From Actinotalea lenta (lineage in GTDB: Bacteria > Actinomycetota > Actinomycetes > Actinomycetales > Cellulomonadaceae), in the NCBI RefSeq assembly GCF_030586465.1, contig NZ_JAUQYP010000001.1, forward strand, positions 186,001 to 250,000: 64,000 bases of DNA, in the 5' to 3' direction. Shown here piece by piece: positions 1 to 18,047 of this stretch (positions within the stretch are counted from its first letter, which is position 1; every line of letters begins with the position of its first letter). The notes below the pieces were generated by a model, which did not search any database, was not told the origin of the DNA, and worked only from the letters and a program-made list of their open reading frames with translations. The position numbers and the translations under genes are program-made.

Positions 1-120
1 CCCACCGGGCTCGACCGTGCGAGGTGGCCGCCATACCCGGCGAAGGGTGCAGCGAATCCGTCGGATGGCGACGGTAGCGCTGCACTCCTGCGGCCCCAGG
101 CGGCGCAGGCGGCGCAGGCG

Positions 121-1224: not shown

Positions 1225-1248
1225 GCCGTCACCCTACGCGCGGCCGGG

Positions 1249-2469: not shown

Positions 2470-3932
2470 GGTGCCGCCACCTCGGGCCGGACAGCAGGGG
2501 TCACGGCCGCGGCGGGCAGGTCGACCGCCTCGAGCACAGGCAGGTCGACCGCCTCGAGCGCGGGCACGGCCGCAGGGGCGCCGGACGGGGCGACGGCGGA
2601 GGCACGGTCGTCGGCGACGCGGCGCGACAGGAGCACGCCCACGATCATGACACCGCCGACCAGGAGCACGGCATGCCGGACGCCGGCGGCCTCCGCGGCC
2701 AGCCCGATCGCGGGCGGCGCGATGAGGTTCGCCGTCGAGGCGAATGCCGACGCGACCGCGACCCGGCCCGCGGCGCCGACACCGTCGCCGGTCACCGCAG
2801 CCATCCCGATCGGCACGACGAGCCCGGCACCCAGGCCCCAGGCGACGGCGCCGAGAACGGCGACCGGCAGCGTCGGGGACAGGGCGAAACCGACCAGCCC
2901 GGCCAGCGCGGTGGACGTGGACGCGAGCATCACGGGAGCCCTGCCGAACCGGTCGATCAGCCTGGTCCCGCTCACCCGGGCCGCAGTCATCGAGGCGACG
3001 AACGTCGCGAACACCAGGGCACCCACGGCTTCACGGGCCCGGAAGCCGTCGACCACGCCGATCGCGAGCCAGTTGTTCGCCGTGCCCTCGGACAGCCCGC
3101 CGGCCATCACGAGGACCCCGAGCACCAGGGTGCGGGGATCGCGCCAGGCCCGCAGCGCCTCGCGCATGCTCCCGCCCGGCGTGACGACGGCCCGGGTCTC
3201 CTGGGGGGCCATCGGCAGCACGGCCCCGGGGATGCTGCGCAGCCGCCAGACGAGCGCCACGACGGCGACGGCCGAGAACTGGACGACCAGGGGGACGCGT
3301 CCCCAGGCCGCGAGGGCACCGAGGCCCGAACCGAGCACCGACCCGATCGAGAACCCTGCGTGGAACTGCGGGACCACGGTGCGCCCCATCCGGCGCTCGA
3401 TCGCCACGGACTGCACGTTCAGCGGGACGTTCCCCAGCGCGAAGGACACACTCATCGCGACCACGCCCGCGCCCAGCACGACGACCGAGCCGACCTCGGG
3501 GCCGACCCCGAGGAGGACCGCCGCCACCGAGTACGTCCACGCGGCGACGACCATCGAGCGCCGGCTGCCCCACCGGGTGGCCAGCGCGCCGGCGCCCAGC
3601 ACCATGGTCAACGACCCGAGCGATCCGACCAGCAGCACCGTGCCCAGCTCGCCGGTGCTCAGGTGCAGCGACTCGCGCACCGTGGGCAGGCGCGCGAGCC
3701 AGGTCGACACCGTGAGCCCGAGCAGGAGGTAGAGGCCGAACAGGTGAGCCCGCGCGACGAGGGCGTCGGGCGCGTCGCCGGGTCGTCCACCCAGAGGCCG
3801 TCGGACCGGAGGTCGCCGGACGGGGGCCTGGCGGGGGATGCGGTCGCCGCGCACGGCGCGCCGCAGGTCGGTGCGCCGGGGTCGGTGACGCAGGTCGAGG
3901 AGTCGGGCGGGCAGGCGGGCAGGACGGTGCAC
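2466..3932 (-). CDS. MFS transporter, first gene of the LacI-facing pair
   Basis: A twelve-helix MFS protein paralogous to the next gene, with the matching segments WLARLPTVRESL, QFHAGFSIGSVLGSG and SEGTANNWLAIGVVDGF. The open frame runs to 4424, but everything upstream of 3932 is Arg/Pro-rich and would overlap the divergent LacI gene. I take the GTG at 3932 (488 residues). A GTG at 3854 (462 residues) is also possible, and neither has a good Shine-Dalgarno. The first hydrophobic helix begins well after either start. A perfect 14-bp palindrome lies 47 nt upstream of 3932, placing the gene under probable LacI control. Substrate unknown. Confidence 0.8.
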   Translation of the reverse strand: MHRPARLPARLLDLRHRPRRTDLRRAVRGDRIPRQAPVRRPPVRRPLGGRPGDAPDALVARAHLFGLYLLLGLTVSTWLARLPTVRESLHLSTGELGTVLLVGSLGSLTMVLGAGALATRWGSRRSMVVAAWTYSVAAVLLGVGPEVGSVVVLGAGVVAMSVSFALGNVPLNVQSVAIERRMGRTVVPQFHAGFSIGSVLGSGLGALAAWGRVPLVVQFSAVAVVALVWRLRSIPGAVLPMAPQETRAVVTPGGSMREALRAWRDPRTLVLGVLVMAGGLSEGTANNWLAIGVVDGFRAREAVGALVFATFVASMTAARVSGTRLIDRFGRAPVMLASTSTALAGLVGFALSPTLPVAVLGAVAWGLGAGLVVPIGMAAVTGDGVGAAGRVAVASAFASTANLIAPPAIGLAAEAAGVRHAVLLVGGVMIVGVLLSRRVADDRASAVAPSGAPAAVPALEAVDLPVLEAVDLPAAAVTPAVRPEVAAP

Positions 3933-3978
3933 GAGGGGCTCACAGCAGGAAGAGAGGGTGGCCTCGTCGACACCTTTG

Positions 3979-3992
3979 TCGAATCGATTCGA
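3979..3992. promoter_or_regulatory. LacI-type operator between MFS pair and lacI gene
   Basis: TCGAATCGATTCGA is a perfect 14-bp palindrome with the central CG typical of LacI-family operators. It sits between the divergent MFS and LacI genes. A second short inverted repeat, TCGACA-CCTT-TGTCGA (3967-3982), overlaps its left side. A TAGGCT box at 4016-4021 could be the -10 of the lacI gene. Autoregulation plus control of the MFS pair is inferred from position. Confidence 0.7.
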
Positions 3993-4060
3993 GGTTGCGA
4001 CACAAGTGTGCTCGGTAGGCTGCCGCCCGTCAACTGACTCCACGAGCCCAGGCAGGTGAG

Positions 4061-5119
4061 ATGACCGACCGCACCACCCTCGCGGACGTCGCCGCGGCGG
4101 CCGGGGTCTCGGTGTCCACGGCGTCCCTCGCCTTCTCCGGCGCGGGACCCATCTCCGCAGCGACCAAGGAACGCGTCCTGGCCGCCGCCACGGAGCTCGG
4201 CTACGCGGGGCCCAGCGCGCTGGGTCGCTCGCTGCGCTCCGGGCGCTCCGGGATCGTCGGGGTCGTGATCGGTGACCAGCTCCGGCGGTCGTTCCGCGAC
4301 CCCGTGTCGGTACGCGTCCTGGACGGCCTGGCCGGATCCCTGGGCCCGCGCGGGCTCGGAGTGCTGCTGGTGCCCGCCACCGGGGACGAGGACGACGAGA
4401 ACGACCCCTTGGTCGCGACGGCACCGCTCGATGCGGCGGTCCTGCTGTTCGGCGCGCGGCGCAGCTCCCCCATCCTCGGCGCGCTGCAGCACCGCGGCAT
4501 CCCCGTCGTGCTGGGCGAAGGGCCGACCGGGCTCGGCCTCCCGGTGGTCGGGGTGGCCGATCGGCAGGGCACGCGACTGCTCGCCGAGCACCTGCGGGAC
4601 CTGGGCCATGAGCGGATCGCCGTGGTCACGCTCCCGCTGGGCGGGGCGCGCCGGTGCGCGCCGGTGGATCCGACCCGGCTCGCGGAGATCGACTGCCCGC
4701 CGGCCGAGCACCGACTCGACGGGCTGCGCGACGCCGGGATCGAACCGGTGGCGGTCGTGGAGGCCGCCGCGTCCCTCGTCGAGGCCGGCACCGACGCGGG
4801 ACGTGTCCTGCTCGACGTCGCCGACCCGCCGACCGCCGTGATGACCCAGTCCGACCTGCTGGCGGCGGGCGTGATCATCGCTGCGCGTGAGCTGGGCCTG
4901 CGAGTGCCGGAGGACGTCTCGGTCGCGGGCTTCGACGGACTGGACCTGCCGTGGCTGGCCCCGGACGTGCTGACGTCGGTGTCTCAGCCGTTCGCCGCCA
5001 AGGGTCAGGCCGTCGCGGAGATGGTCACCGCGATCCTCGCGGGTGAGCAGCCGGCGGACGTCGAGCTCCCCGTCGAGCTCCGCCTCGGTACCACCACAGG
5101 CCCACCACCAGCTGCATGA
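4061..5119 (+). CDS. LacI family transcriptional regulator
   Basis: A 352-residue LacI/GalR repressor. The N-terminal helix-turn-helix reads TLADVAAAAGVSVSTASLAF, followed by the hinge helix ALGRSLRSGRSG and a periplasmic-binding-protein-like effector domain ending in a DVSVAGFDGLDLPWLAPDVLTSV segment. The ATG at 4061 has AGGTGAG directly upstream. It faces the coupled MFS genes across a palindromic operator and most likely represses them and itself. The effector is not predictable, though LacI members usually bind a sugar. The C-terminal tail is short and unremarkable. Confidence 0.92.
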   Translation: MTDRTTLADVAAAAGVSVSTASLAFSGAGPISAATKERVLAAATELGYAGPSALGRSLRSGRSGIVGVVIGDQLRRSFRDPVSVRVLDGLAGSLGPRGLGVLLVPATGDEDDENDPLVATAPLDAAVLLFGARRSSPILGALQHRGIPVVLGEGPTGLGLPVVGVADRQGTRLLAEHLRDLGHERIAVVTLPLGGARRCAPVDPTRLAEIDCPPAEHRLDGLRDAGIEPVAVVEAAASLVEAGTDAGRVLLDVADPPTAVMTQSDLLAAGVIIAARELGLRVPEDVSVAGFDGLDLPWLAPDVLTSVSQPFAAKGQAVAEMVTAILAGEQPADVELPVELRLGTTTGPPPAA

Positions 5120-5146
5120 CCCCGCCGCCCGGTGGTGATCACGGTG

Positions 5147-5563
5147 TCAGGGGGTGGGCAGGCTCACGAGGGCCTGGGCCTTGGCCAGGACCTTGACGCC
5201 GGCCGCCTCGACCACGAGGTCGACGCGGGCGGTGCCGGCGTCGACAGCACCCACGGTGGCCGTGATGGTCACGAGCGCGGCGCCGGGATCGGGCACCTCC
5301 ACGGGGCGCGTGAAGCGCACGCCGTACTCGAGCACGCGGCCCGGATCCCCCAGCCAGTCCACCACGACGTTGATCGCGACCCCCATGGTGAGCATGCCGT
5401 GCGCGATGACGCCGGGCAGGCCCACCTCGCGCGCGAGCCGCTCGTTCCAGTGGATGGGGTTGCGATCGCCGCTCGCGCCCGCGTAGTGCACGAGATCCGC
5501 ACGCGAGACCTCGACGGTGCGGATGCCGACCACCTGGCCGACCTCGACGGGCGTGCCGCTCAT
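5147..5563 (-). CDS. MaoC-type (R)-specific enoyl/hydroxyacyl dehydratase, HadB-like
   Basis: A 138-residue single hot-dog protein. It has the hydratase motif GDRNPIHW near residue 33 (catalytic Asp and His present), followed by GLPGVIAHGMLTMG, as in the catalytic HadB subunit. The ATG at 5563 overlaps the stop of the preceding hadA-like gene as ATGA. In mycobacteria, rpmG2-hadA-hadB-hadC encodes the FAS-II 3-hydroxyacyl-ACP dehydratase, and the gene order here is the same for rpmG-hadA-hadB. No hadC follows. Whether it acts in FAS-II or on another acyl thioester in this organism is open. Confidence 0.85.
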   Translation of the reverse strand: MSGTPVEVGQVVGIRTVEVSRADLVHYAGASGDRNPIHWNERLAREVGLPGVIAHGMLTMGVAINVVVDWLGDPGRVLEYGVRFTRPVEVPDPGAALVTITATVGAVDAGTARVDLVVEAAGVKVLAKAQALVSLPTP

Positions 5564-6009
5564 GTGCCGTCCCCCCGGACCGCGAGGGTGGAGACCACCG
5601 TGCTCACCGGCCGACCAGCACCGTCGACGAGCTCGCACCGGGTGGTGACCATCGCCAGGCCGGCGCGCTCGGTGATCGAGTCCACGTGCAGGACCGTCGT
5701 GATCTCGTCCCCCGCCACGATGGGACGGTGGTGGGTGAAGCGCTCTTCCGCGTGCACCACGCGGGAGAAGTCGATCCCCGCGGCCGGGTCGGCGATCAAC
5801 TGGGCCTCGGCGGCCTGCGCGATCACCACCGCGAAGGTCGGCGGCGCAACCACGTCGGCGTACCCGATCTGTCGGGCTGCTTCCGGGTCCCGATGGCTCG
5901 GGTGGGTCGCTCCGACGGCGGACGCGAAGTCCCGCACGTGCTCACGCCCCACCAGGTACGGCGCGGTGGGCGGGTAGGCGCGTCCGGCGTAGCCCGCGTC
6001 GATCGGCAT
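5560..6009 (-). CDS. MaoC-like dehydratase, HadA-like structural subunit
   Basis: A 149-residue hot-dog-fold protein starting at ATG 6009 (MPIDAGYAGR...). The region that aligns with the hydratase motif reads VGATHPSHRD and lacks the Asp-x4-His pair, as in mycobacterial HadA, which is the substrate-binding partner of catalytic HadB. Together with the overlapping hadB-like gene it probably forms a heterodimer. It lies 11 nt downstream of rpmG and is probably transcribed with it and the two tRNA genes. Upstream in-frame codons belong to the antisense-like extension and the rpmG region, so I rejected longer starts. Confidence 0.83.
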   Translation of the reverse strand: MPIDAGYAGRAYPPTAPYLVGREHVRDFASAVGATHPSHRDPEAARQIGYADVVAPPTFAVVIAQAAEAQLIADPAAGIDFSRVVHAEERFTHHRPIVAGDEITTVLHVDSITERAGLAMVTTRCELVDGAGRPVSTVVSTLAVRGDGT

Positions 6010-6020
6010 GGCCGATCCGG

Positions 6021-6191
6021 TCAGCGGGTCTCGCGGTGCGCGGTGTGCTTGCCGCAGCGCGGGCAGAACTTCGCCAGCTCGAGCCGGTCGGGGTCGTTCC
6101 GCCGGTTCTTCTTGGTGATGTAGTTCCGCTCCTTGCACTCGGTGCAGGCAAGCGTGATCTTCGGTCGGACGTCCTGAGTCTTGCTGGCCAC
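6021..6191 (-). CDS. rpmG: 50S ribosomal protein L33 (zinc-binding form)
   Basis: A 56-residue protein beginning with GTG at 6191, preceded by AGAGGTGA. It contains the L33 core [21 protein letters not shown] and two CxxC pairs (CTEC, CPRC) that mark the zinc-bound paralog rather than the zinc-free C-minus form. It sits directly after tRNA-Met and before hadA/hadB, the order seen around rpmG2 in mycobacteria. The ribosomal role is established for the family. Confidence 0.95.
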
Positions 6192-6243
6192 GATTCACCT
6201 CTGCTGTCGTGCGTCGGCCGGGCGCGACCGATCTTGTCCTGAG

Positions 6244-6320
6244 TGGTAGCGGGGGCGGGACTCGAACCCGCGACACCACGATTATGAGCCGTGTGCTCTA
6301 ACCACCTGAGCTACCCCGCC
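6244..6320 (-). tRNA. tRNA-Met (CAT), elongator type
   Basis: Cloverleaf on the minus strand with acceptor GGCGGGG pairing CCCCGCT, D-arm TAGCTCAGGTGGTTAGAGC, anticodon loop with CAT, and TTCGAGTC in the T arm. CCA is encoded (6244-6246). The first pair is G-U, not the mismatched C-A of the initiator, so this is an elongator Met tRNA; a lysidine-modified tRNA-Ile2 cannot be fully excluded from sequence alone. Confidence 0.93.
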
Positions 6321-6350
6321 ATTCCGGCACCCGCGCACAGGCACCGCCAG

Positions 6351-6423
6351 AGCCCCGAAAGGGAATCGAACCCTTGACCTTCTCCTTACCATGGAGACGC
6401 TCTGCCGACTGAGCTATCGGGGC
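6351..6423 (-). tRNA. tRNA-Thr (GGT)
   Basis: A 73-nt cloverleaf on the minus strand. Acceptor GCCCCGA pairs with TCGGGGC, the anticodon stem is TCTCC/GGAGA with loop ATGGTAA (anticodon GGT), and the T arm contains GGTTCGATTCC. CCA is not encoded. It lies 30 nt upstream of tRNA-Met, the conserved thrT-metT-rpmG order. Confidence 0.95.
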
Positions 6424-6477
6424 AGCGCAGGCCAGGGTACAGGAGCCTGAGCGGCGGGCGAAATTGCGCCCCCGCCC

Positions 6478-6855
6478 TCAGTCGTCGGCGAAGATCTCGA
6501 TCAGCTCGCCCACGCGATGCTCGCCCTCGGCCGGGTGGCGGAACTCCAGGTCCCCGTGCACGACGTAACGGTTGCGACGGCCGACCCGCTCCTTGGTGAC
6601 GTAGCCCGCCACCTCGAGATCATGCACGATGCTCGCGGCCGAGCGCTCGGTGATCCGGGCGCGTTCCGCGATGTCGCGAAGGCGCAGGTCCGGCTCCCGG
6701 GCGATGAGCAGGAGCACGCGGCCGTGCGAGGTCAGCAGCGTCCAGCCCTGCCCCTCGCGCCGGCTCGCGGGCACAGGCTCGGCGGCCGGCCGGGTCCCCT
6801 CCGACCGGCCCGGGCGACGACCCGCGACGGACACAGCTCCATGGTGCCCGATCAC
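6478..6855 (-). CDS. Winged helix-turn-helix regulator facing dabBA
   Basis: A 125-residue protein. After a disordered Arg-rich N terminus it has a compact winged helix: GRVLLLIAREPDLRLRDIAERARITERSAASIVHDLEVAGYVTKERVGRRNRYVV, in which the recognition helix and wing are clear. It resembles MarR/ArsR-type regulators without an obvious ligand domain. The start is GTG 6855; a later start would not affect the HTH. It is divergent from the dabBA fusion, and a 22-bp inverted repeat sits between them, so it probably controls that operon and itself. A TAAAAT box at 6889-6884 on the minus strand may be its -10. Confidence 0.8.
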   Translation of the reverse strand: MIGHHGAVSVAGRRPGRSEGTRPAAEPVPASRREGQGWTLLTSHGRVLLLIAREPDLRLRDIAERARITERSAASIVHDLEVAGYVTKERVGRRNRYVVHGDLEFRHPAEGEHRVGELIEIFADD

Positions 6856-6885
6856 GCCCCGCCCCGGCCCGTTCCGTGGGTCGAT

Positions 6886-6913
6886 TTTACAGGAAACTTA
6901 TTTCCTGTATCTT
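6886..6913 (+). promoter_or_regulatory. dabBA promoter with overlapping palindromic operator
   Basis: TTTACA (6886-6891) and TATCTT (6908-6913), 16 nt apart, form a good -35/-10 pair. Transcription would start about 7 nt after the -10, at the ATG at 6921, giving a leaderless mRNA. A perfect inverted repeat lies between them: arm TACAGGAAA (6888-6896), spacer CTTA, arm TTTCCTGTA (6901-6909). The arms cover the -35 and -10, so a bound regulator would block polymerase. The divergent winged-helix gene is the likely ligand. Confidence 0.75.
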
Positions 6914-6920
6914 CCCTCCT

Positions 6921-9900
6921 ATGTTCGCCCTCTCGGTCGCCCGCATCCCACCGGTAGCCCTGCTGCTCGCGGCGCTCGTCGCCCTCGGCAGGTCGCTGTC
7001 CGGCACCACCCCGGCCCTGGTCCTGGGACGGATGGACCTGGGCCCGCTCGGCACGGCCGACGTGGCATGGACCGTCGGCCCCGTCGAGGCCGCGCTCCTC
7101 GCCCTGGTGGCGGGCATCGGCACCGTCGTGACCAGCTACAGCGCCCGCAACCTCGTCGGCCAGCGGCGTCTGGTCCGGTACGCAGCGCTCGAGACCGCCG
7201 CCGTGGCGGGGCTCGCGCTCGCCGTGACGGCGTCCTCGCTGCCTGTGCTCGCCGCGGGCTGGACCCTGGGGACGTTCGCCCTGACGGGTCTGGTCTCCCA
7301 CGCGGGCACGACGCAGGCCCGGCGCGCCGCGCGGCAGGTCAGGGCCCGACTGCTGGTGGGAGACGCGCTGCTCTGGGCCGCCGTCCTGCTGGCCGGCACA
7401 CAGCTGGGCACGCTCGACCGGGCGGACCTCTCCGCGCGGGTCGCCCAGGCGCCCAGCTCCGTCGTCACCCTCACCGCACTGGCCGTCGTGGGCGCCGGAA
7501 TGGTCCGCAGCGCGCTCGTCCCCGCGCACCGGTGGCTGCCCGAGACCGCCGAGGCGCCGTCGCCGGTGAGCGCGCTGCTGCACGCCGGCCTCGTCAACGG
7601 GGTCGGCGTGCTAGCCCTGCTGCTGTGGCCCCTGGTCGAGGCCGCGACCGCAGCCCGGGTGCTGCTCCTGCTGGCCGGTGCCACCACCGCGGTCGTCGCA
7701 ACCGCCCAGCTGCGCACTCGCGCCGACGTCAAGGGAAGGCTGGCCGCGTCGACCTCCTCCCAGATGGGCTACCTGGCGATCCAGGCAGGTCTCGGGATCC
7801 CCGCGGGCGTCCTGGCCCACGTGATCGGGCACGGCGTGTGGAAGGCGTCTCTGTTCCTGGGAGCGGGCGGTGCCGTGGGACGTGCCAGGACGCGCGATGC
7901 GGCGGGTTCCGGGCATCGGCGGCTGCCGGTCGTGCTCGGCGCCGTGGTTGCGGCGACGGTGGGGCTCTCGGCGCTCGCGCCCGCGGCCTGGCTGCCCGCG
8001 CTGACCGCCCCCGCGGAGCTGCTCGTCCTGGTCATCGCGACGGTCGCCGCCTGGGTCGCGCTCGACGCCGTCGCCCGGCGTGACGCCCCGCTCCCGGCGC
8101 GCCTGCTCGCGTCCGGCCTGGTCCTGGCCGCGGTGGCCGGGTACCTGCTCGGGCTGCGCGCCCTCGGCCACCTGCTGGCCGACGTGGTCGGCGAACCCGC
8201 ACCCTGGACCGGCCCGCAGGGCCCTGTCACCGCCGGGGCAGTCCTCGTGCTCGTCGTGACCGGCGTGGTCGCTGCGCGCATCGACGGCGCGGCCCGTGCC
8301 GGACGCCGGCCGCGGCTCGCGCGCCGGGCCGCCCGCAGCTCGCTACGGCCCACGACGCTGCGCGGGCGGTTCGCAGGCGCCCCCTCGGTCGCGATGCCGA
8401 TCCCGCCGGTGACCGAGGCTGACGCCACGGCCGCGCGCCACGACCTGGACGGCGCGTCGTCGGTCGCCGGCGTCCTGTTCCCTCTCACGTCCTTCGTGGC
8501 GAGCAACCCTCTCGCCGGCCTCGAGGACCTCGACGTCGTGGAGGCCACCCGCGTGGCCGGCGACACGTGGGGGGCCGAGCCCGGACCGTCGGCGCGCGCG
8601 CTGCGGGACGCACAGGAGCGGGGGCGCCTCCAGGAGGCCGACCTCGCTGCGGCGCTCGAGGCAGGATCCGTCGAGGTCGGCGTCCGCCCGGACCTGCTCC
8701 GCGCACTGCTCGTCAGCGACGGTCCAGGAGCCCACGAGCTCGCGTGGGCGGTGGACGCGCTGGACCGGGCCGGGGTCGAGCCCGACCGCGCGCTGCGCAC
8801 CCCGGTCCAGGTGCTGCTGCCCCACGCGCCGGAGGTCGCGGGCCGCGCCCGGGACCTGGCGAACCACTGCTGCGCCCGGTCCCTCGCCGGCACGGCCTGG
8901 CCCGGGGCGGCGGGTCCGTGGCAGGAGCTTCGCGCCCTGGATCTCGACGCACTCATCGGCGTGCGGGGCGCCGCGGACGTCGTCGCCGCGCTGCCTGCCG
9001 ACGCCACCGGCGCGATCGCGGCGCTCCTCGAGCACTTGGGCGTGCACCCGCAGGACCGTCCTGCGCTGCTCGCCCGGGTCGTCGCCCGCGACCCGGGCTG
9101 GCCCGCGCACCTGCAGTGGCGTGCACGCCACGAGCGTCTTGGCCGGGAGGCCGGCCTCGACCTCCCGACGCAGGGTGCCGCCGACGCGCTCCTCGCCGAG
9201 CTGGTCGCGACGCGCCTGGCCCTCGACGTGGTCGTGGCCGAAGCGCATGCGCCACGCCTGCTCGGCCGACCGTTCGACCCGAGCGACCTCGTGCACGACT
9301 CGCACGACCGACTGGCCGGGCACCTCTCGACCCTGAGGCACGCCGGGCTGCTCGGAGCCGACCCCGGTCCCGCGGAGGTCCGCGCGGTGGCCGGCGAGCT
9401 CGCCGACCTGACGGCTGCCCGGCTGGCGAGCATGCGGGCCGAGGCCCTCGAGCGAGCGTTCCGGCGGACGCTGCTCGGCCCGGTGGCGGCCCGCGCGGAG
9501 CAGCCCGCAGCCGCGCCGGGGTCCGCTCAGCCGCCCGCGGCACAGCTGGTCACGTGCATCGACGTGCGGTCCGAGCGGCTGCGCCGCCACCTCGAGGCAC
9601 TGGGGCCGTGGGAGACCCTGGGGGCCGCAGGGTTCTTCGGTCTCCCGGTCCAGCACAGCGGCCCGACGGGGACCGTGACCGAACGGACCCCCGCGCTGGT
9701 CCGGCCCGGCGCCGCGGTCACGGAACGGCGCGGCCCGACGCGCGGCCTCGCGGGCTGCGACGACGCGCTCGTCGCCGCCGCGCGTGCGGTCGAGGGCGCC
9801 GTAGGCCTGCCGTTCGGGTGGGCCGAGGCGGCCGGCTGGTTCTACGCGCCGTTCGTCCTGCTCACGACTCTCGCTCCGGCCGGCGCCCGCGCCCTGCGCG

Positions 9901-11057
9901 AGGTGGTCCGACGCGCCCTCGGCACGCCACGTCGCGGAACCCTCGACGTCGTCTCGGACGTGGGCGTGGACACGCTGGCCGATGCTGCGGCGGGCTTCCT
10001 GGCCACCCTCGGGAACCCCGACCTGGCACCGCTCGTGGTCATCGCCGGTCATGGCGGCGGGGTCACCAACAACCCGCATGTGGCCGCCTACGACTGCGGT
10101 GCGTGCGGAGGCGCCGCAGGGGACGTCAACGCGCGCGTCATGGTGCAGGCGCTGAACGACCCTCGGGTGCGTCGGGCCCTGGGCGAGCGGGGCGTCACCC
10201 TCACGCCGCAGACGCGCTTCGTCGCGGCGGTGCACGACACCACGCGCGACGTCGTGGCGGTCCTGGACCGCGAGGAGCTGCCCGACCAGTGGTCCTCGAC
10301 CCTCGGCGACCTCGAGGCCGACCTGTCCCGCGCCGGGCACGCGGTCCGGCACGAGCGCCTGGCCCTGCTCCCCGAGGGCGCGCACCGCAACGGGCTCGGT
10401 CAGGTGCGCCGGCGCGCCGCGGACTGGGCCCAGCCCCGCCCGGAGTGGGGGCTGGCCGGGGCGGCCGCGATCGTCGTGGGACCGCGCGACCTCACCCGTG
10501 GTCTGGCGCTCGACGGACGGGTCTTCCTGCAGTCCTACCGGGCCGGGTCCGACCCCGACGGGGTGGTCCTCGAGCAGCTCCTCGCCGCTCCGGTGGTGGT
10601 GGCCCAGTGGATCACGGCGCAGTACTGGGCATCCACCGTCGACCCGCACCGCTTCGGCGCCGGGGACAAGACGACCCACAACGTCGTGGGCGACGGACCG
10701 CTCTCGGCCGTCGTGACCGGGGCGCGCGGTGACCTGCGACTCGGGCTCCCCTGGCAGGCCGTCTCGGCGACCTCCCCCGTCGCGAACCCCTCGACCGGGC
10801 AGGACCCGTGGACGGCAGCCACGCACCACGAGGCCCTCCGGCTCCTGGTCGTCGTGGCGGCCGAGCGGTCCACGGTCGACCGTGCCGTTCAGCGGCAGCC
10901 CGCTGTGGCCCGCCTCGTCTCGGGCGGGTGGATCACCGTGGCGGTCGTCGAACCCGGCTCCGGCGAGACATGGGTGATGCGGCGCGACGGCAGCTGGGTG
11001 GCCGAGGCCCTCCCGCTGGGCGAGGGAACCGTGCGCGAGACCGTCCGCGATGCTTGA
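6921..11057 (+). CDS. DabB-DabA fusion, probable inorganic carbon (DIC) accumulation protein
   Basis: One 1378-residue chain. Residues about 1-480 are a polytopic NuoL/DabB-like proton-channel domain with the hallmark HRWLPETAEAPSPVSALLHA, and LAASTSSQMGYLAIQ. After an Arg-rich linker, residues about 515-1370 are a DabA/DUF2309 domain starting LFPLTSFVASNPLAGLED. Its carbonic-anhydrase-like zinc site is intact: C879 and D881 in TCIDVRSE, H1044 in AGHGGG and C1059 in YDCGACGG. The His-Cys spacing of 15 equals that recalled for Halothiobacillus DabA (H524, C539). In known systems DabA and DabB are separate and together hydrate CO2 to bicarbonate vectorially. Start ATG 6921 matches a leaderless promoter; a GTG at 6876 would place the operator inside the gene. 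Confidence 0.88.
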   Translation: MFALSVARIPPVALLLAALVALGRSLSGTTPALVLGRMDLGPLGTADVAWTVGPVEAALLALVAGIGTVVTSYSARNLVGQRRLVRYAALETAAVAGLALAVTASSLPVLAAGWTLGTFALTGLVSHAGTTQARRAARQVRARLLVGDALLWAAVLLAGTQLGTLDRADLSARVAQAPSSVVTLTALAVVGAGMVRSALVPAHRWLPETAEAPSPVSALLHAGLVNGVGVLALLLWPLVEAATAARVLLLLAGATTAVVATAQLRTRADVKGRLAASTSSQMGYLAIQAGLGIPAGVLAHVIGHGVWKASLFLGAGGAVGRARTRDAAGSGHRRLPVVLGAVVAATVGLSALAPAAWLPALTAPAELLVLVIATVAAWVALDAVARRDAPLPARLLASGLVLAAVAGYLLGLRALGHLLADVVGEPAPWTGPQGPVTAGAVLVLVVTGVVAARIDGAARAGRRPRLARRAARSSLRPTTLRGRFAGAPSVAMPIPPVTEADATAARHDLDGASSVAGVLFPLTSFVASNPLAGLEDLDVVEATRVAGDTWGAEPGPSARALRDAQERGRLQEADLAAALEAGSVEVGVRPDLLRALLVSDGPGAHELAWAVDALDRAGVEPDRALRTPVQVLLPHAPEVAGRARDLANHCCARSLAGTAWPGAAGPWQELRALDLDALIGVRGAADVVAALPADATGAIAALLEHLGVHPQDRPALLARVVARDPGWPAHLQWRARHERLGREAGLDLPTQGAADALLAELVATRLALDVVVAEAHAPRLLGRPFDPSDLVHDSHDRLAGHLSTLRHAGLLGADPGPAEVRAVAGELADLTAARLASMRAEALERAFRRTLLGPVAARAEQPAAAPGSAQPPAAQLVTCIDVRSERLRRHLEALGPWETLGAAGFFGLPVQHSGPTGTVTERTPALVRPGAAVTERRGPTRGLAGCDDALVAAARAVEGAVGLPFGWAEAAGWFYAPFVLLTTLAPAGARALREVVRRALGTPRRGTLDVVSDVGVDTLADAAAGFLATLGNPDLAPLVVIAGHGGGVTNNPHVAAYDCGACGGAAGDVNARVMVQALNDPRVRRALGERGVTLTPQTRFVAAVHDTTRDVVAVLDREELPDQWSSTLGDLEADLSRAGHAVRHERLALLPEGAHRNGLGQVRRRAADWAQPRPEWGLAGAAAIVVGPRDLTRGLALDGRVFLQSYRAGSDPDGVVLEQLLAAPVVVAQWITAQYWASTVDPHRFGAGDKTTHNVVGDGPLSAVVTGARGDLRLGLPWQAVSATSPVANPSTGQDPWTAATHHEALRLLVVVAAERSTVDRAVQRQPAVARLVSGGWITVAVVEPGSGETWVMRRDGSWVAEALPLGEGTVRETVRDA

Positions 11058-11910
11058 CGTGCCGCTCGGAGCCGTGGACCCGACCTATCGCGGCCGGGTC
11101 GCGGTGCTCGCCACCAAGCACGGGAAGGAGGCGCAGATCGCCCCTGCGCTGGCGCCGACGGGGCTGCTGGTGGAGGTCACCGAGATCGACACGGACCGGT
11201 TCGGCACGTTCACGGGCGAGGTCCCGCGCACCGGCAGCCCGGTCGAGGTGGCGGAGCGCAAGGCCCGCGCCGCCATGGCGGCGACGGGCCGGGACGCGGG
11301 CCTCGCCTCCGAGGGCAGCTTCGGCCCGCACCCGGGCGTTCCCGTCCTCACCGCCGACCTCGAGATCGTGGTGCTCGTCGACGACCTCCTCGGCGTCGTC
11401 GTCGCCGAGCAGGCGCTCAGCGTCGACACCGCCGCCACGTCGCGCACCGTGGCCCCCGGGGAGGACCTCTCGGAGCTCTGCGCCGCCGTCGGGTTCCCGG
11501 ACCAGGCACTCATCTGTCGTCCGGCGGACGGCTCCCCCGACGGCATCGCCACAGGTCTCACCCGGCTGCCGGACCTCGACCGAGCGGTCCGGGACGCCGC
11601 GCGCGCGTCGGCCGACGGGCTCGCCCGGGTCGAGACCGATCTGCGAGCGCACCTGTGCCCGACCCGCCGTCGGGTCATCGCCGAGGCGGCCGAACGCCTC
11701 GCCGTGCGGCTGATGACGCGCTGCCCGCGCTGCTCGGTACCGGGTTTCGGGCTCACCCGGTCGGAGCAGGGACGGCCGTGCGGGCTGTGCGGGCTGCCGA
11801 CCAGGGGGCCCGTGGCGATGGTCACGACCTGTTCGCGGTGCGAGCACCGCGAACGGGTCCCGGTCCCCGGGCCGGCCGATCCCGCCACGTGCACGTGGTG
11901 CAATCCCTGA
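11050..11910 (+). CDS. DUF6671-like zinc-ribbon protein, coupled to dabBA
   Basis: A 286-residue soluble protein of unknown function that I match, from memory, to DUF6671. The N-terminal part begins YRGRVAVLATKHGKEAQIAPAL and contains SEGSFGPHP. The C-terminal 60 residues hold four Cys pairs (CPRC, CGLC, CSRC, CTWC), forming two probable zinc ribbons. The ATG lies inside the end of dabBA (8-nt overlap), which implies co-translation and a shared role. It might assist assembly or zinc loading of the DabA site or regulate it; this is inference from context only. A strong hairpin terminates the operon. Confidence 0.75.
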   Translation: MLDVPLGAVDPTYRGRVAVLATKHGKEAQIAPALAPTGLLVEVTEIDTDRFGTFTGEVPRTGSPVEVAERKARAAMAATGRDAGLASEGSFGPHPGVPVLTADLEIVVLVDDLLGVVVAEQALSVDTAATSRTVAPGEDLSELCAAVGFPDQALICRPADGSPDGIATGLTRLPDLDRAVRDAARASADGLARVETDLRAHLCPTRRRVIAEAAERLAVRLMTRCPRCSVPGFGLTRSEQGRPCGLCGLPTRGPVAMVTTCSRCEHRERVPVPGPADPATCTWCNP

Positions 11911-11930
11911 CGCGCACCCGGAGACGACGA

Positions 11931-11954
11931 ACGCCCCGAGTCTCCTCGGGGCGT
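11931..11954. terminator. Hairpin between dabBA operon and tRNA-Tyr
   Basis: ACGCCCCGAG (11931-11940) and CTCGGGGCGT (11945-11954) form a perfect 10-bp stem with a TCTC loop and no U tract, common for actinobacterial terminators. It lies between convergent units and can serve both strands. Confidence 0.75.
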
Positions 11955-11957
11955 CGC

Positions 11958-12041
11958 TGGTGGCAGGTGAGGGATTCGAACCCCCGTAGCTCGCGCAACT
12001 GATTTACAGTCAGCTCCCTTTGGCCGCTTGGGTAACCTGCC
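11958..12041 (-). tRNA. tRNA-Tyr (GTA)
   Basis: A class II cloverleaf on the minus strand. Acceptor GGCAGGT pairs ACCTGCC, the anticodon loop contains GTA (GACTGTAAATC), a long variable arm follows and the T arm has GGTTCGAATCC. CCA is encoded at 11958-11960. Confidence 0.95.
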
Positions 12042-12165
12042 GGGCCGACCACGGTCGGTGCGGATGGAAGGATAGCAACTCCCCGGGGGAGGTCCGCACG
12101 CCCAACGGGACCGGACCCGGCGCGAGAACGCCACGCCCCCGCTCGCCGCACCGGAAGGACACGCC

Positions 12166-12657
12166 ATGGCATCCGACTCCTCGTTCGACGTCGTCAGCAA
12201 GGTCGACCGCCAGGAGGTCGACAACGCCCTCAACCAGGCGGCCAAGGAGATCTCCCAGCGGTACGACTTCAAGGGCGTCGGCGCCTCGATCGCGTGGAGC
12301 GGCGACATGATCGTCATGCTCGCCAACAGCGAGGAGCGCGTGAAGGCCGTCCTCGACGTCTTCCAGACCAAGCTGGTCAAGCGCGGCATCTCGCTCAAGG
12401 CCATCGACACCGGCGAGCCCAAGGCCTCCGGCAAGGAGTACCGCCTCGAGGCGACCCTCAGGCAGGGCCTGAGCAGCGAGAACGCCAAGGCGATCAGCAA
12501 GCTCGTGCGCGACGAGGGCCCCAAGGGCGTCAAGGCCACCATCACCGGTGACGAGGTGCGGGTGTCGAGCAAGAGCCGCAACGACCTGCAGGCCGTCATA
12601 GCCCTCCTCAAGGAGGCGGACCTGGACGTCGCGCTGCAGTTCGTCAACTACCGGTAG
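12166..12657 (+). CDS. yajQ: YajQ family cyclic-di-GMP/nucleotide-binding protein
   Basis: A 163-residue protein covering the whole family length. It starts with the typical [20 protein letters not shown] and contains QRYDFKG, followed by [23 protein letters not shown] and [16 protein letters not shown]. YajQ proteins are two-lobed ferredoxin-like folds; the Xanthomonas member binds cyclic di-GMP, and other homologs bind RNA. A GGDEF-EAL protein lies at the other end of this window, so c-di-GMP signalling is plausible but unproven. The GGAAGGACACGCC stretch supplies a Shine-Dalgarno before ATG 12166. Confidence 0.94.
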
Positions 12658-12687
12658 GAGCGCGCGGTCCTAGGGGCGTCCGGCCGG

Positions 12688-13173
12688 TCACATCCCGAGG
12701 GCCGAGAGCTCCCCCGGAGCCGGTCCACCCGCGGCACGGGTGAACGCCTCGAGCGCGTCGGCCAGGGTGGCGCGCTCGTCGTCCGCCATGCCCGCCAGGA
12801 TCGCCGCGATCTCCTCGCGCCGCCGCGCGGTGACACGGTCCACCAGGTCCCGGCCGGCGTCGGTCAGCTCGATGAGCACCGTGAGCCGCGTGCCGGGCTC
12901 GTCGATCCGCTGCACCCAGCCGCCCGCGACCAGCCGGTCGGCGTTCCGGGTGAAGGTCGACGGGTGGATGCCCATCCGTTCCGCCACCACGCCCGAGCGC
13001 AGCGGACCCTCCGTGGCCAGCAGGACCAGGACCCGGTATTGCGGCAGGGAGACCTCGTCGAGCGCCTCGTTGAGCGACCGGGCGATCACGGCGAGCAGGG
13101 CCCGCGACGCATGCAGGGTGACGTCCGCCGCGCGGTCGAGGCCGACCGGTGGACCCTCGGGTCGAGTGGTCAT
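12688..13173 (-). CDS. MarR family regulator facing the ClC genes
   Basis: A 161-residue MarR protein. It has LPQYRVLVLLATEG, the winged helix GVVAERMGIHPSTFTRNADRLVAGGWVQRI, and the wing segment RLTVLIELTDAGRDLV, then the dimerisation helices. The ATG at 13173 is chosen because the frame continues upstream only into antisense of the ClC gene. It is divergent from the ClC genes with 24 nt between start codons, and a MarR-type palindrome overlaps the ClC start. It probably represses the ClC pair and itself; the ligand is unknown. Confidence 0.9.
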   Translation of the reverse strand: MTTRPEGPPVGLDRAADVTLHASRALLAVIARSLNEALDEVSLPQYRVLVLLATEGPLRSGVVAERMGIHPSTFTRNADRLVAGGWVQRIDEPGTRLTVLIELTDAGRDLVDRVTARRREEIAAILAGMADDERATLADALEAFTRAAGGPAPGELSALGM

Positions 13174-13185
13174 GGGACGACATGC

Positions 13186-13207
13186 TACATTAGTTGTATG
13201 CCTACAA
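13186..13207 (+). promoter_or_regulatory. ClC promoter -10 and MarR-type operator
   Basis: TACATT (13186-13191) lies 6 nt before the A of ATG 13198 and gives a leaderless transcript. TTGTA-TGCC-TACAA (13194-13207) is a perfect inverted repeat of MarR-operator shape that covers the start codon, so binding would block both the start site and early elongation. Confidence 0.65.
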
Positions 13208-15171
13208 GTTCCGGAGTTGCCGCGCGCCTCGGCACGACCGCTCGGCAGCTCCGGAGCACCTCCGGCGCCCTGACCGTGATGGCTCTCGTGGTGGGAGCCA
13301 CCACCGGTCTGGGCGCCGTCGTCTTCCGGTGGCTCATCACGCGCGCGACCTGGATCTTCACCGGTCACGCCGACTACTCCGCCGTCGGCCTCGGCAACCA
13401 CCCCCCGCACCCGTGGGTGCCATGGCTGGGCTCCTGGTTCGTCGTCCTGGCACCCGTGGTCGGCGGGATCATCTACGGCCCGGTCATCCAGAAGTGGGCC
13501 AAGGAGGCCCGCGGGCACGGCGTCCCCGAGGTCATGCTCGCCGTCTCCCAGCGGGGCGGCCGGATCGAGGGCAAGGTCGCCGTCGTCAAGTCGCTCGCAT
13601 CGGCGCTGTCCATCGGCTCCGGCGGCTCGGTCGGCCGCGAGGGCCCGATCGTGCAGATCGGCTCGGCGCTGGGCTCCCGCATCGCCCAGTGGGCACGGCT
13701 GTCGGAGACCAAGGTCCGCACGTTGGTGGCGTGCGGCGCCGCGTCCGGTATCGCTGCCACCTTCAACGCGCCCATCGCCGGGGTCTTCTTCGCCCTCGAG
13801 CTGCTGCTGCGCGACTTCACCGCCGAGTCGTTCGGCATGGTGGTCCTCGCCGCCGTCACCGCCTCCGTGATCGGGCGAGCGATCCTCGGCGACGTGCCCT
13901 TCCTCGAGCTGCCGACGTTCTCCGTGCACCACGCGGGCGCCTACCTGCTGTTCGCCGTCCTCGGCGTGATCGCCGGAGTCGTCGGCGTGCTCTTCACCCG
14001 GATCCTGTACGGCTTCGAGGACGTCGCGGACAAGATCTGGCGCGGCCCGGAGTGGGCCAGGCCGGCCGTCGGCGGCGTGCTGCTCGGCCTGCTCCTGCTC
14101 GCCGTCCCGCAGATGTACGGCGTCGGTTACCCCGTCCTGCAAGCGGGTGTGCACGGTGAGTTCGCGATCGCAGTGCTGCTGGGCCTCCTGGTGGCCAAGA
14201 TGGTGGCGACCAGCCTGAGCATCGCGATCGGCGGCTCCGGCGGCATCTTCGCCCCGAGCCTGTTCATCGGAGGCATGCTCGGCGCCGCCTTCGGGGACGT
14301 CGCGTCCCAGCTGTTCCCCGGCATCGCCGGTCCCGCCGGCGCGTTCGCGCTCGTGGGCATGGGAGCGGTGTTCGCCGGAGCCGCGCGCGCCCCGATCACC
14401 GCGGTGCTCATCCTGTTCGAGCTCACCGGCGAGTACACCATCATCCTGCCGCTGATGCTCGCGATCGTGCTGGCCACGGGCGTGAGCCGGGCGCTGAGCC
14501 GGGACAGCATCTACACCCTGAAGCTGCGTCGGCGCGGCATCGAGATCGACTCCCGCGCCGCCGATCCCCGCCTGACCGACAAGACCCTCGGCGACGTCAT
14601 GGAACCACCACCCGTCGCACTGTCCGACTCGGTGAAGCTCGAGGCCGCCGCACGTCGCCTGCTCTCCAGCGGCCGCGGGTCCCTGCCCGTGGTCTCCGAG
14701 GGCCTGCTCGTCGGCCAGCTACGGGCGGACAAGGTCGCCACCGCGATGGAGACCGAGGACACGGCCGGCACGTTGACCGTCGCGGACGTCCTCGACGACG
14801 TACCCCGCGCGCGCACCACGACTGTGCTGCGGCGCGGCCTGGACGCGTTGCGCCGTCACGAGTACCCCGACGGCGGCCTCGCCGTGACGGACGAGGAGGG
14901 GCGGCTCGTGGGCTGGGTCACGCACCGAACCCTGCTGCGCACCCTCACGGCGCCCCTCCCCGTGGCGCCGGCCGCGACCGCCGGGACCGCACTGGCCCGG
15001 CTGCGCTCCCCCCGGCGTCGGCCGCACGAGCCGCGCGTGCGGCGAGGACCGGCCCGACCGCGCTCCGGCGACGGCGACCCCGCCGCCCACCGCGACCCCG
15101 CCGCACACCGGGGCCCCGCCGCGGCTCCTGGGACCGAAGAGGGGCAGGCCACCGCGCCCGCCCGCCGCTGA
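13198..15171 (+). CDS. ClC family chloride channel/transporter with CBS domains
   Basis: A 657-residue membrane protein of the voltage-gated chloride channel family. The ion-pathway motifs are present: GHGVPEV (GSGIP equivalent), GSGGSVGREGPIVQ with the gating glutamate, and GSGGIFAPSLFIGG (GxFxP). It has about ten transmembrane helices, then a CBS pair (DVMEPPPVALSDSV..., VLDDVPRARTTTVLRRG...). The end is Arg/Pro-rich, with a DPAAHR-type repeat in the last 40 residues. It may be a Cl-/H+ antiporter or channel; I cannot tell which, nor exclude fluoride, although the GREGP motif is of the ordinary chloride type. The MarR gene faces it. Confidence 0.92.
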   Translation: MPTSSGVAARLGTTARQLRSTSGALTVMALVVGATTGLGAVVFRWLITRATWIFTGHADYSAVGLGNHPPHPWVPWLGSWFVVLAPVVGGIIYGPVIQKWAKEARGHGVPEVMLAVSQRGGRIEGKVAVVKSLASALSIGSGGSVGREGPIVQIGSALGSRIAQWARLSETKVRTLVACGAASGIAATFNAPIAGVFFALELLLRDFTAESFGMVVLAAVTASVIGRAILGDVPFLELPTFSVHHAGAYLLFAVLGVIAGVVGVLFTRILYGFEDVADKIWRGPEWARPAVGGVLLGLLLLAVPQMYGVGYPVLQAGVHGEFAIAVLLGLLVAKMVATSLSIAIGGSGGIFAPSLFIGGMLGAAFGDVASQLFPGIAGPAGAFALVGMGAVFAGAARAPITAVLILFELTGEYTIILPLMLAIVLATGVSRALSRDSIYTLKLRRRGIEIDSRAADPRLTDKTLGDVMEPPPVALSDSVKLEAAARRLLSSGRGSLPVVSEGLLVGQLRADKVATAMETEDTAGTLTVADVLDDVPRARTTTVLRRGLDALRRHEYPDGGLAVTDEEGRLVGWVTHRTLLRTLTAPLPVAPAATAGTALARLRSPRRRPHEPRVRRGPARPRSGDGDPAAHRDPAAHRGPAAAPGTEEGQATAPARR

Positions 15172-15203
15172 CTACGGACCCCTGGTCCGCCGAGAGGACG
15201 CCC

Positions 15204-17024
15204 ATGGTGGGATTCGTGACCGCGATCGGTCGACGCATGCGCGCGGAGGTCGTCACCGCCGTCCTCGCACTCGCCGTCGGCGTGGTGGCGGGGCTCGGCG
15301 CGGTGGCGTTCAGGGCGCTGATCTCCCTGGTCCACAACCTGTTCTTCGGCGGCAGGCTCAGCCTGACCTACGACGCCCTCGTGCACACCGACCCCAGCCG
15401 GTGGGGCGTGGGCGTGATCCTGGTGCCGGTCGTCGGCGCTCTCGCGGTCGTGGTCCTGGTCAAGCGATTCGCGCCCGAGGCCAAGGGACACGGTGTGCCC
15501 GAGGTGATCGACGCGATCCACTTCAAGGGCGGCCGCATCCGTCCGCGCGTCGCGGGCGTCAAGGCCCTGGCCTCCTCGATCTCGATCGGATCCGGGGGCT
15601 CCGTCGGCCGCGAAGGACCGATCATCCAGATCGGCGCGACGTTCGGCTCGATCCTCGCCCAGTGGCTCAAGCTGCCCGAGTGGCAACGCCTGACCCTGAT
15701 CGCGGCGGGCGGTGGCGGCGGCATCGCCGCCACGTTCAACACCCCGATCGGCGGCGTGATCTTCGCCGCCGAGATCCTCATCGTCGAGATCAGTGCCCGC
15801 ACGCTGATCCCCGTGCTGATCGCCACGGGGACCGCGAGCGTGATCGCGGGACTGTTCTTCGGGGACCAGCCCTCGTTCGTCATCCCCGCGCTCACCATCG
15901 ACCCGCCCGCCGTGTCCCCGATGTCACTGGTGGGCTACAGCCTGCTGGCCATTCTCCTCGGCCTGGTCGGCTGGCTCTACACCCGGTCGATCTACTGGGC
16001 CGAGGACCTGTTCGACCGGCTCCCGGTCAACGACTACCTCCGGCACGTGATCGGCATGCTCGTGGTCGGCGTCACGATCTACCTGCTCATGGCACGCACC
16101 GGGCACTACTGGATCGAGGGCGTCGGCTACGCCACGATCCAGGAGATCCTGCAGGGCACCCTCACGGCCGCCGGGTTCATGGTGCTGCTGGCTGGGCTCA
16201 AGCTGCTGTCCACGTCGTTGACCCTGGGCTCGGGGGCGTCCGGCGGCGTCTTCTCACCCGCGCTGTTCATCGGTGCGACGCTCGGCGCAGCGTTCGCGAC
16301 CGTGGTCGACGCCGTCGCTCCCGGGATGCACCTCAACCCCGTCAACGCGGCCGTCGTCGGGATGGCGTGCATGGTAGGTGCGAGCACCGGAGCCGCCGTG
16401 ACAGCCGTCGTGATGACCTTCGAGATGACCCGGGACTTCCAGGTCCTCATCCCGCTGATCGTCGCGGTCTCGCTGGCCTACCTGGTGCGACGCTCGCTCA
16501 TGTCGGACACCATCTACACCCTCAAGCTGTCCCGCCGTGGACAGCAGCTGCCGGCCGCGCTGCAGAGCTCCCTGTACCTGACGCGCCGGGCGGTCGACTT
16601 CGTCCACGCGCCGTTCGTCGTCAAGCCCGCGGACGCCACCCTGTCGGACCTGCCCCTGACCTGGGGGCGCCGGAACAGCCACATCGTGCTGGCCGGGCCG
16701 GACGGAGGGGTCGCCGGCGTGGTGACCGCGCACCGCATCGGCGAGGCGCGTCGCTCGCAGCGCTCACCGGCGACCCCGCTGCTGGACCTGGCCGGTACGA
16801 AGCCCACCTTCGCCCCTGCGGACGCGCAGATCGTCGACCTCATCGGGGTGCTGCGCGGCAGCGGCGTCCACCTCACCGTGCTCACCGAGGACGGGGCGCG
16901 CGCGCCGGCTCGCGCGGTCAAGGGCGTGCTCACCCACGAGGACGTCGTGGAGGCCACCAACATGGCTCAGACGCTGCGACGCACGCCCGTCGCCCGGACG
17001 GACATCGCGGGCCCGGACGACTGA
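15204..17024 (+). CDS. Second ClC family chloride channel/transporter
   Basis: A 606-residue paralog of the preceding gene, 32 nt downstream and on the same strand. It carries KGHGVPEV, GSGGSVGREGPIIQ with the gating glutamate and GSGASGGVFSPALFIG. The C-terminal cytosolic part resembles a diverged CBS pair (FVHAPFVVKPADATLSDL..., PTFAPADAQIVDLIGVL...). The ATG at 15204 follows GAGAGGACGCCC. The pair presumably forms homodimers or a heterodimer. The tandem arrangement suggests an old duplication, because the proteins differ clearly outside the motifs. Confidence 0.9.
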   Translation: MVGFVTAIGRRMRAEVVTAVLALAVGVVAGLGAVAFRALISLVHNLFFGGRLSLTYDALVHTDPSRWGVGVILVPVVGALAVVVLVKRFAPEAKGHGVPEVIDAIHFKGGRIRPRVAGVKALASSISIGSGGSVGREGPIIQIGATFGSILAQWLKLPEWQRLTLIAAGGGGGIAATFNTPIGGVIFAAEILIVEISARTLIPVLIATGTASVIAGLFFGDQPSFVIPALTIDPPAVSPMSLVGYSLLAILLGLVGWLYTRSIYWAEDLFDRLPVNDYLRHVIGMLVVGVTIYLLMARTGHYWIEGVGYATIQEILQGTLTAAGFMVLLAGLKLLSTSLTLGSGASGGVFSPALFIGATLGAAFATVVDAVAPGMHLNPVNAAVVGMACMVGASTGAAVTAVVMTFEMTRDFQVLIPLIVAVSLAYLVRRSLMSDTIYTLKLSRRGQQLPAALQSSLYLTRRAVDFVHAPFVVKPADATLSDLPLTWGRRNSHIVLAGPDGGVAGVVTAHRIGEARRSQRSPATPLLDLAGTKPTFAPADAQIVDLIGVLRGSGVHLTVLTEDGARAPARAVKGVLTHEDVVEATNMAQTLRRTPVARTDIAGPDD

Positions 17025-17030
17025 TCTCGG

Positions 17031-17051
17031 CCGGACGCCTCAGGCGTCCGG
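17031..17051. terminator. Convergent terminator between ClC and htpX
   Basis: CCGGACGCC (17031-17039) and GGCGTCCGG (17043-17051) make a perfect 9-bp stem whose three-base loop TCA is the htpX stop codon read on the minus strand. It can serve both convergent genes. Confidence 0.7.
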
Positions 17052-17909: not shown

Positions 17910-18047
17910 GTGAACCCTCCTGCCCGACGTACGCACCGCACCGCGGCGGCTGCCCACGTCAACGTTCCACAGGCTGGCACGGTTCCCTGCGGGCCGGCCC
18001 GGAACGGGGTGGACGTCGGCTGTGCGAACCCGGTGCGGGCGCCGGGC

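Follow-up and report, generated by a model that had tools for sequence, protein, structure and literature searches.

The window, the whole stretch of 64,000 nucleotides of Actinotalea lenta analysed here (contig NZ_JAUQYP010000001.1, positions 186,001 to 250,000), contains a gene, dabBA, in which the two proteins of a DAC/DAB inorganic carbon pump, DabB and DabA, are joined in a single chain, and which overlaps a gene of the DUF6671 family. The fused gene and its parts are as follows.

6921..11057, plus strand: dabBA, single-chain DabB-DabA protein of 1378 residues in one frame, with Pfam and PDB sequence matches
6921..8282, plus strand: DabB/NuoL-like membrane half, residues 1-454, with 13 hydrophobic peaks in a family-averaged profile
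8283..8453, plus strand: basic linker joining the two halves, residues 455-511, limited on the 5' side by the last hydrophobic peak and on the 3' side by the start of the DabA match
8454..10934, plus strand: DabA half, residues 512-1338, with C879, D881, R883, H1044, C1059 and L1178
9807..9920, plus strand: predicted helix-loop-helix, residues 963-1000, in a model of residues 180-1378, with E969 aligned to the 'finger' E444 of DAB2

A previous sequence-only reading had described one open frame of 1378 codons holding a NuoL/DabB-like membrane domain followed by a complete DabA domain, and had proposed a profile search of the whole protein. This description held: translation of 6921-11057 (plus strand) gave 1378 codons with zero internal stops, and both Pfam profiles were matched above their cut-offs and in that order, Proton_antipo_M (PF00361) at residues 110-327 (87.1 bits, cut-off 21.5, E 1.6e-24) and DabA (PF10070) at residues 512-1338 (592.9 bits, cut-off 25, E 1.4e-177, positions 4-747 of the 747 in the profile). 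The best PDB sequence matches were DabA2 (E 2.2e-82) and DabB2 (E 5.1e-27), both chains of entry 9rd0. An assembly or frameshift artefact at the junction was considered and rejected as extremely improbable, since the uninterrupted frame lies inside a 2.9-Mb contig of a genome in three contigs and the same one-frame order is found in 19 other non-identical rows of the 40-protein tree presented below.

Residues known from the DAB2 pump of Halothiobacillus neapolitanus were compared in 22 fused proteins, that of the window (P0001) included, aligned to stretches of DAB2; L024 and L036 are nearly the same protein, with no difference over the stretch used for the trees, so that the rows are not 22 independent ones. 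The four zinc-site residues named in the sequence-only reading stand at the numbers it gave and align to the zinc site of DAB2 (C351, D353, H524 and C539 of DabA2 correspond to C879, D881, H1044 and C1059). The protein keeps the zinc ligands C879, H1044 and C1059 and the Asp-Arg dyad D881 and R883, and mutation of zinc-site residues is reported to impair DAB2 function (PMC13144422). The positions of C351, D353, R355, S356, H524, C539, H585, W656 and L658 of DabA2 are identical in 22 of 22 fused proteins, Leu658, which stands in place of the carbonic-anhydrase Gln/His, being L1178 in dabBA. Finger position E444 is Glu in 20 of the 22, among them dabBA (E969), and Asp in the other two. As for the membrane half, S256, H260, K310, H339, H343 and K347 of the DabB2 proton path are kept in all 22 proteins and S316 in 21, the proton-path residues present in dabBA being S217, H221, K271, S277, H300, H304 and K308. 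DabB2 I151, a Glu in NuoL, is T115 in dabBA, likewise without Glu, and the ion-pair residue D185 is kept as D148. A structure model covering residues 180-1378 of the 1378 (mean predicted local distance difference test score, pLDDT, 70.5; predicted template modelling score, pTM, 0.71) has a helix-loop-helix around E969, and in a fold search with this partial model NuoL-type and Mrp chains ranked first, with low TM-scores.

The sequence-only reading had taken such a fusion to be possibly undescribed; a description is already in print. According to a 2026 cryo-EM paper (PMC13144422), two-chain DAB2 was prone to dissociate in sample preparation and was fused artificially for structure determination, with DabB2 joined to DabA2 in the same order as in dabBA and without significant impact on growth yield, a design that corresponds to the single-subunit system occurring naturally in Acidimicrobium ferrooxidans, cited there from Schmid 2021. 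In the passages searched in four further papers, the word 'fused' was off-topic or referred to separate genes in two, and neither 'fused' nor 'fusion' occurred in the other two. The DabB-DabA fusion is a known architecture, and the pump in the window is another member of it. The fused gene of genome G499 is very probably the published A. ferrooxidans system. Like dabBA, this DAC (L045/L102) is one chain, DabB then DabA, in one frame and with the zinc-site residues kept; it differs in sequence (32.6% identity in DabA, 23.9% in DabB), in its position outside the clade of the window, in a DUF6671 gene that is unlinked to its DabA, and in the presence of RuBisCO in the genome. DAB2 (PDB 9rd0) and the engineered Dab2 share with dabBA the same two proteins with their zinc-site and proton-path residues, and the engineered form also the chain order, whereas natural DAB2 consists of two proteins in a chemolithoautotroph and has different ion-pair residues. 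Staphylococcal MpsAB, compared here by description only, is like dabBA a DAC homologue in a non-autotroph, and differs in its two separate genes and its proposed Na+/HCO3- symport; the introduction of the same paper mentions DAC homologues in heterotrophs (PMC13144422).

Occurrence of the fusion was evaluated in a class sample of 394 genomes and a phylum sample of 396, the genome of the window being in both. DabA was found in 31 of the class genomes, where a six-frame search gave 12 fused and 17 split loci (dabB leading in 8, dabA in 9), the remaining two, in G112 and G242, being unassignable owing to interrupted matches or matches that run off a contig. The search for other fused architectures that the sequence-only reading had proposed showed fusions to be common in this sample. 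In the phylum sample, DabA was present in 23 genomes, fused in that of the window and in A. ferrooxidans and split or too fragmentary in the rest. A protein scan of named genomes, Terrabacter, Tessaracoccus, Nocardioides and Nostocoides among them, identified 11 loci. Nine of these encode the two halves in a single frame, L041 being truncated at its start, and in the other two the contig stops inside the membrane half or beyond it. A seemingly fused match on a Sphingobium plasmid was discarded, as its annotated DUF2309 gene starts after the membrane part.

For the trees, 28 rows lacking the active-site sequence expression (26 loci, most of them fragments or members of the reversed-order DabA subfamily, and the plasmid copies L110 and L112) and the duplicates L036 and L040 were removed, leaving 44 rows. 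A more careful tree, from which L002, L004 and L029, on contigs that stop short of any visible DabB, and the fused L033, on a very long branch, were also taken out, was built with the catalytic part of DabA from 40 proteins, of which 20 are fused and 20 split. On it the fused/split label changes at least three times, two of these changes being forced by well-supported branches (five changes on the first tree, where L002, L004 and L029 were scored as split), and monophyly of all fused DabA proteins was rejected in the approximately unbiased (AU) test (p 2.9e-77); the tree gives no direction, gains and losses of the fusion not being told apart. A. ferrooxidans DabA was placed together with that of DAB2 and four copies from proteobacterial plasmids (support 100/100), and the 16-row clade that holds dabBA of the window consists of fused proteins throughout (support 99/99). 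The copy in the window belongs to a sizeable, separately branching, all-fused actinomycete group of natural one-chain DACs, proteins that are useful given the dissociation and artificial fusion of two-chain DAB2. Within the genus of the window, DabA is present in 4 of 19 genomes; the fused copy of congener G016 falls elsewhere than in the clade of the window, and the copies of the other two DabA-bearing congeners are cut by contig ends. The presence in four of 19 genus members and the position of the G016 copy would fit a gain by transfer.

The sequence-only reading had also placed the gene in a probable heterotrophic actinobacterium. The host is an actinobacterium, and heterotrophy fits only as regards the Calvin cycle, no RuBisCO match being found in its genome. 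RuBisCO was matched in two of the 14 fused-DAC genomes searched and not in the other 12, two of which are just 70-76% complete, so a tie of the fused DAC to the Calvin cycle is unsupported. Two matches to beta-carbonic anhydrase were found in the host, one over the whole profile (E 9e-33) and one over less than half of it (E 2e-11), and since this enzyme is present in all 19 genus members, with or without DabA, the idea of dabBA as the sole means of CO2 hydration was rejected. With no RuBisCO match and these carbonic anhydrase matches in the host, the pump looks neither like a part of the Calvin cycle nor like the only route of CO2 hydration.

Around dabBA, the following features were identified, the regulator gene, the palindrome and the DUF6671 gene being absent from the sequence-only reading.

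6478..6774, minus strand: MarR-like winged-helix gene, 98 amino acids, divergent from dabBA (MarR_2, 35.2 bits, cut-off 27)
6888..6909, no strand: perfect palindrome TACAGGAAA-CTTA-TTTCCTGTA, starting 33 nucleotides 5' of the ATG, candidate operator
6908..6913, plus strand: TATCTT, a possible -10 box
11050..11910, plus strand: DUF6671 gene, 286 amino acids, an N-terminal part followed by four CxxC pairs, overlapping the dabBA stop by 8 nucleotides

The DUF6671 gene matches PF20376 over its full length (151.3 bits, cut-off 23.8, profile 1-217 of 217), a family on which no paper was found in the literature searched. It is rare, being present in 8 of the 394 class genomes, where 7 carry DabA as well, and in 8 of the 396 phylum genomes, where 6 do (p 7e-8 and 5e-7, respectively, in Fisher tests that take related genomes as independent); the union of both samples holds 15 DUF6671 genomes, 12 with DabA and 10 with both genes within about 5 kb. 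In G113, a genome without DabA, an SbtA-like gene adjoins DUF6671. Among 72,556 plasmid records, 123 of which match the fused protein, DUF6671 was found in 12, at 15 places; when the best place per record was taken (12 of the 15), seven were near DabA, four near an SbtA-type permease (three by annotation, two of these on plasmids of one strain, and one by phmmer) and one near neither. Altogether, DUF6671 lies within 9 kb of a DabA or SbtA-type gene in 22 of 27 loci. Its orientation to the pump genes is variable (downstream, upstream or divergent), a variability that speaks against a single operon having simply been inherited, and it overlaps the end of dabA directly in five loci (window, L043, Aminobacter, Fuscovulum and Ideonella). 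The recurrence of DUF6671 with inorganic-carbon uptake genes is what is new here and the part worth following, providing a direct handle on the family and a candidate extra component of CO2/bicarbonate supply outside autotrophs.

In 28 DUF6671 proteins (those of the 27 loci and L043) the invariant residues include H24, K26, D49, R60, K71, E88 and seven cysteines, and an eighth, C247, is nearly invariant. An assignment of the N-terminal part to ITPase-type pyrophosphatases was unsupported among the best 25 of 47 Pfam families or in a PDB sequence search, which was led by zinc-ribbon-like matches at E values no better than 0.07. In the nearest fused relative, the DUF6671 gene that follows the pump (L034:10112-10702) matches over the first part only, and may be broken or reflect a metagenome assembly error.

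Copies of housekeeping enzymes are found in the 27 DUF6671 loci (terC 7, ilvD 6, cysD/cysN 5, icd 3, tsaC 3 and pyrC 2, counts that include one match each by construction, as the reference proteins were drawn from the same loci); the loci with such copies are L093, L094, L096, L100, L104, L106, L108-L115, L117 and L118. No companion enzyme was found in positions 1-19000 of the window (locus L091), where the island consists of the regulator gene, dabBA and DUF6671, and a literature search on this set of enzymes, with five of six terms, found no paper. At L036:3157-4548, a locus with fused dabBA and without DUF6671 nearby, a cysD-like frame lies upstream, beside a small winged-helix gene.

The palindrome lies between dabBA and the divergent MarR-like gene, and at up to three mismatches it occurs at one place in the 3.3-Mb genome, the reversed control giving 0. 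The comparison covered 10 named fused-type relatives with an upstream region, for two of which the sequence covers the membrane half alone: at up to four mismatches a match was found near the pump start in five (L035, L036, L037, L042 and L044) and not in L034, L038, L039, L040 and L043, while controls gave two matches in 10,000 random stretches of the same local composition and none in 5.55 million bases of whole-locus sequence. It starts 31-33 nucleotides before the called start in L035, L037 and L044, as in the window, and L094 and the split L099 likewise have matches, with 2-4 mismatches. A related small winged-helix gene is divergent from the pump and adjoins it in 7 of 11 named loci, and the palindrome could be the operator of the MarR-like protein. 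A longer alternative frame opens at GTG 6876; a start there would cross the palindrome, which makes ATG 6921 the likelier start of dabBA, and the spacing between TATCTT and this ATG suggests a leaderless transcript.

From the sequence, domains, conserved residues, gene overlap and co-occurrence observed, we consider it likely that dabBA is a single-chain DAC/DAB pump giving cytoplasmic bicarbonate for ordinary carboxylations, with MarR-like control and a co-translated DUF6671 protein serving uptake; here coupling, direction, regulation and physiological use are deduced. The mechanism would be carried over from DAB2 by the conserved residues: protons would run down the proton motive force through the NuoL-like half, the helix-loop-helix of DabA, inserted beside it, would sense their flow, and the buried zinc site would hydrate CO2 one way and leave bicarbonate in the cytoplasm, feeding carboxylations alongside beta-carbonic anhydrase and making dabBA an energy-driven bicarbonate supplier. 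The single chain is predicted to fix DabB:DabA stoichiometry at 1:1. Expression would probably be controlled by the MarR-like protein at the palindrome, and the overlapping DUF6671 gene is probably co-translated with dabBA and may serve bicarbonate uptake.

Several observations weigh against this proposal. Identity over the aligned stretches is 28.9% to DabB2 and 33.3% to DabA2, the fold search with the partial model yielded nothing at E <= 0.001 and did not have 9rd0 among the best 50 of 339, and some DabA positions vary across the 22 fused proteins (D590 kept in 18, L629 in 18, A703 in 15 and R653 in 13). In addition, the ion-pair Lys K235 of DabB2 is Arg in 20 of the 22 (R196 in dabBA) and R182 is Leu in 16 (L145 in dabBA), an altered region that suggests that coupling could differ from DAB2. 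This difference in ion-pair residues, together with the proposal that the homologue MpsAB is a Na+/HCO3- symporter (PMC13144422), would agree with dabBA being a symporter of that kind instead of a proton-driven CO2 hydratase. We regard this as decidedly unlikely: dabBA retains a full Cys2His zinc site as well as the Asp-Arg dyad and the Glu of the finger, although these alone are not discriminating, MpsAB being outside the alignment. DAB2 itself is reported to have full activity without sodium and not to rescue Na+-sensitive E. coli lacking nhaAB (PMC13144422).

With regard to DUF6671, we see about even chances that it is a so far unrecognised component or regulator of inorganic-carbon uptake in bacteria, serving the unrelated DabAB and SbtA and marking transferable islands in which bicarbonate supply is combined with spare copies of housekeeping enzymes, and, as part of that same evenly balanced judgement, that the window holds the minimal form of such an island: regulator, operator, one-chain pump and DUF6671. 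Relatedness among the genomes counted, a poor DUF6671 model (two-sequence alignment, pLDDT 52.2) and five of the 27 loci, near neither DabA nor SbtA, count against a role of DUF6671 in bicarbonate uptake; these five are G411 (DabA on another contig), A. ferrooxidans (same contig, unlinked), a Methylocystis plasmid, and G483 and G656, both with isocitrate dehydrogenase close to DUF6671. Plasmid copies and patchy occurrence suggest mobility, and A. ferrooxidans has both genes far apart, as might be expected if DUF6671 were a passenger that shares mobile islands with DabA without common function; yet the direct overlap with the end of dabA in five loci, with divergent or upstream positions elsewhere, and its location near SbtA in five loci where DabA was not found make that explanation doubtful. 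Somewhat less probable still is a narrower task for the pump, supplying bicarbonate for a process of DUF6671 with IlvD, Icd, CysD/CysN, PyrC, TsaC and TerC, perhaps a stress or metal response, for which the recurrence of the companion genes across the 27 loci would speak, but not their absence from positions 1-19000 of the window.

Two observations concern other DabA loci. In Actinomycetota, the reversed-order DabA proteins (dabA before dabB) are encoded in frames of about 1,000-1,390 amino acids, most with a long insert (L014-L021, L032, which is cut, L046-L049, L051, L053, L054 and L058-L060). Small P-II-like proteins are encoded next to dabA or overlapping it in L093, L095, L097, L104, L105, L108 and L110, two of them recognised by Pfam and the rest by phmmer.

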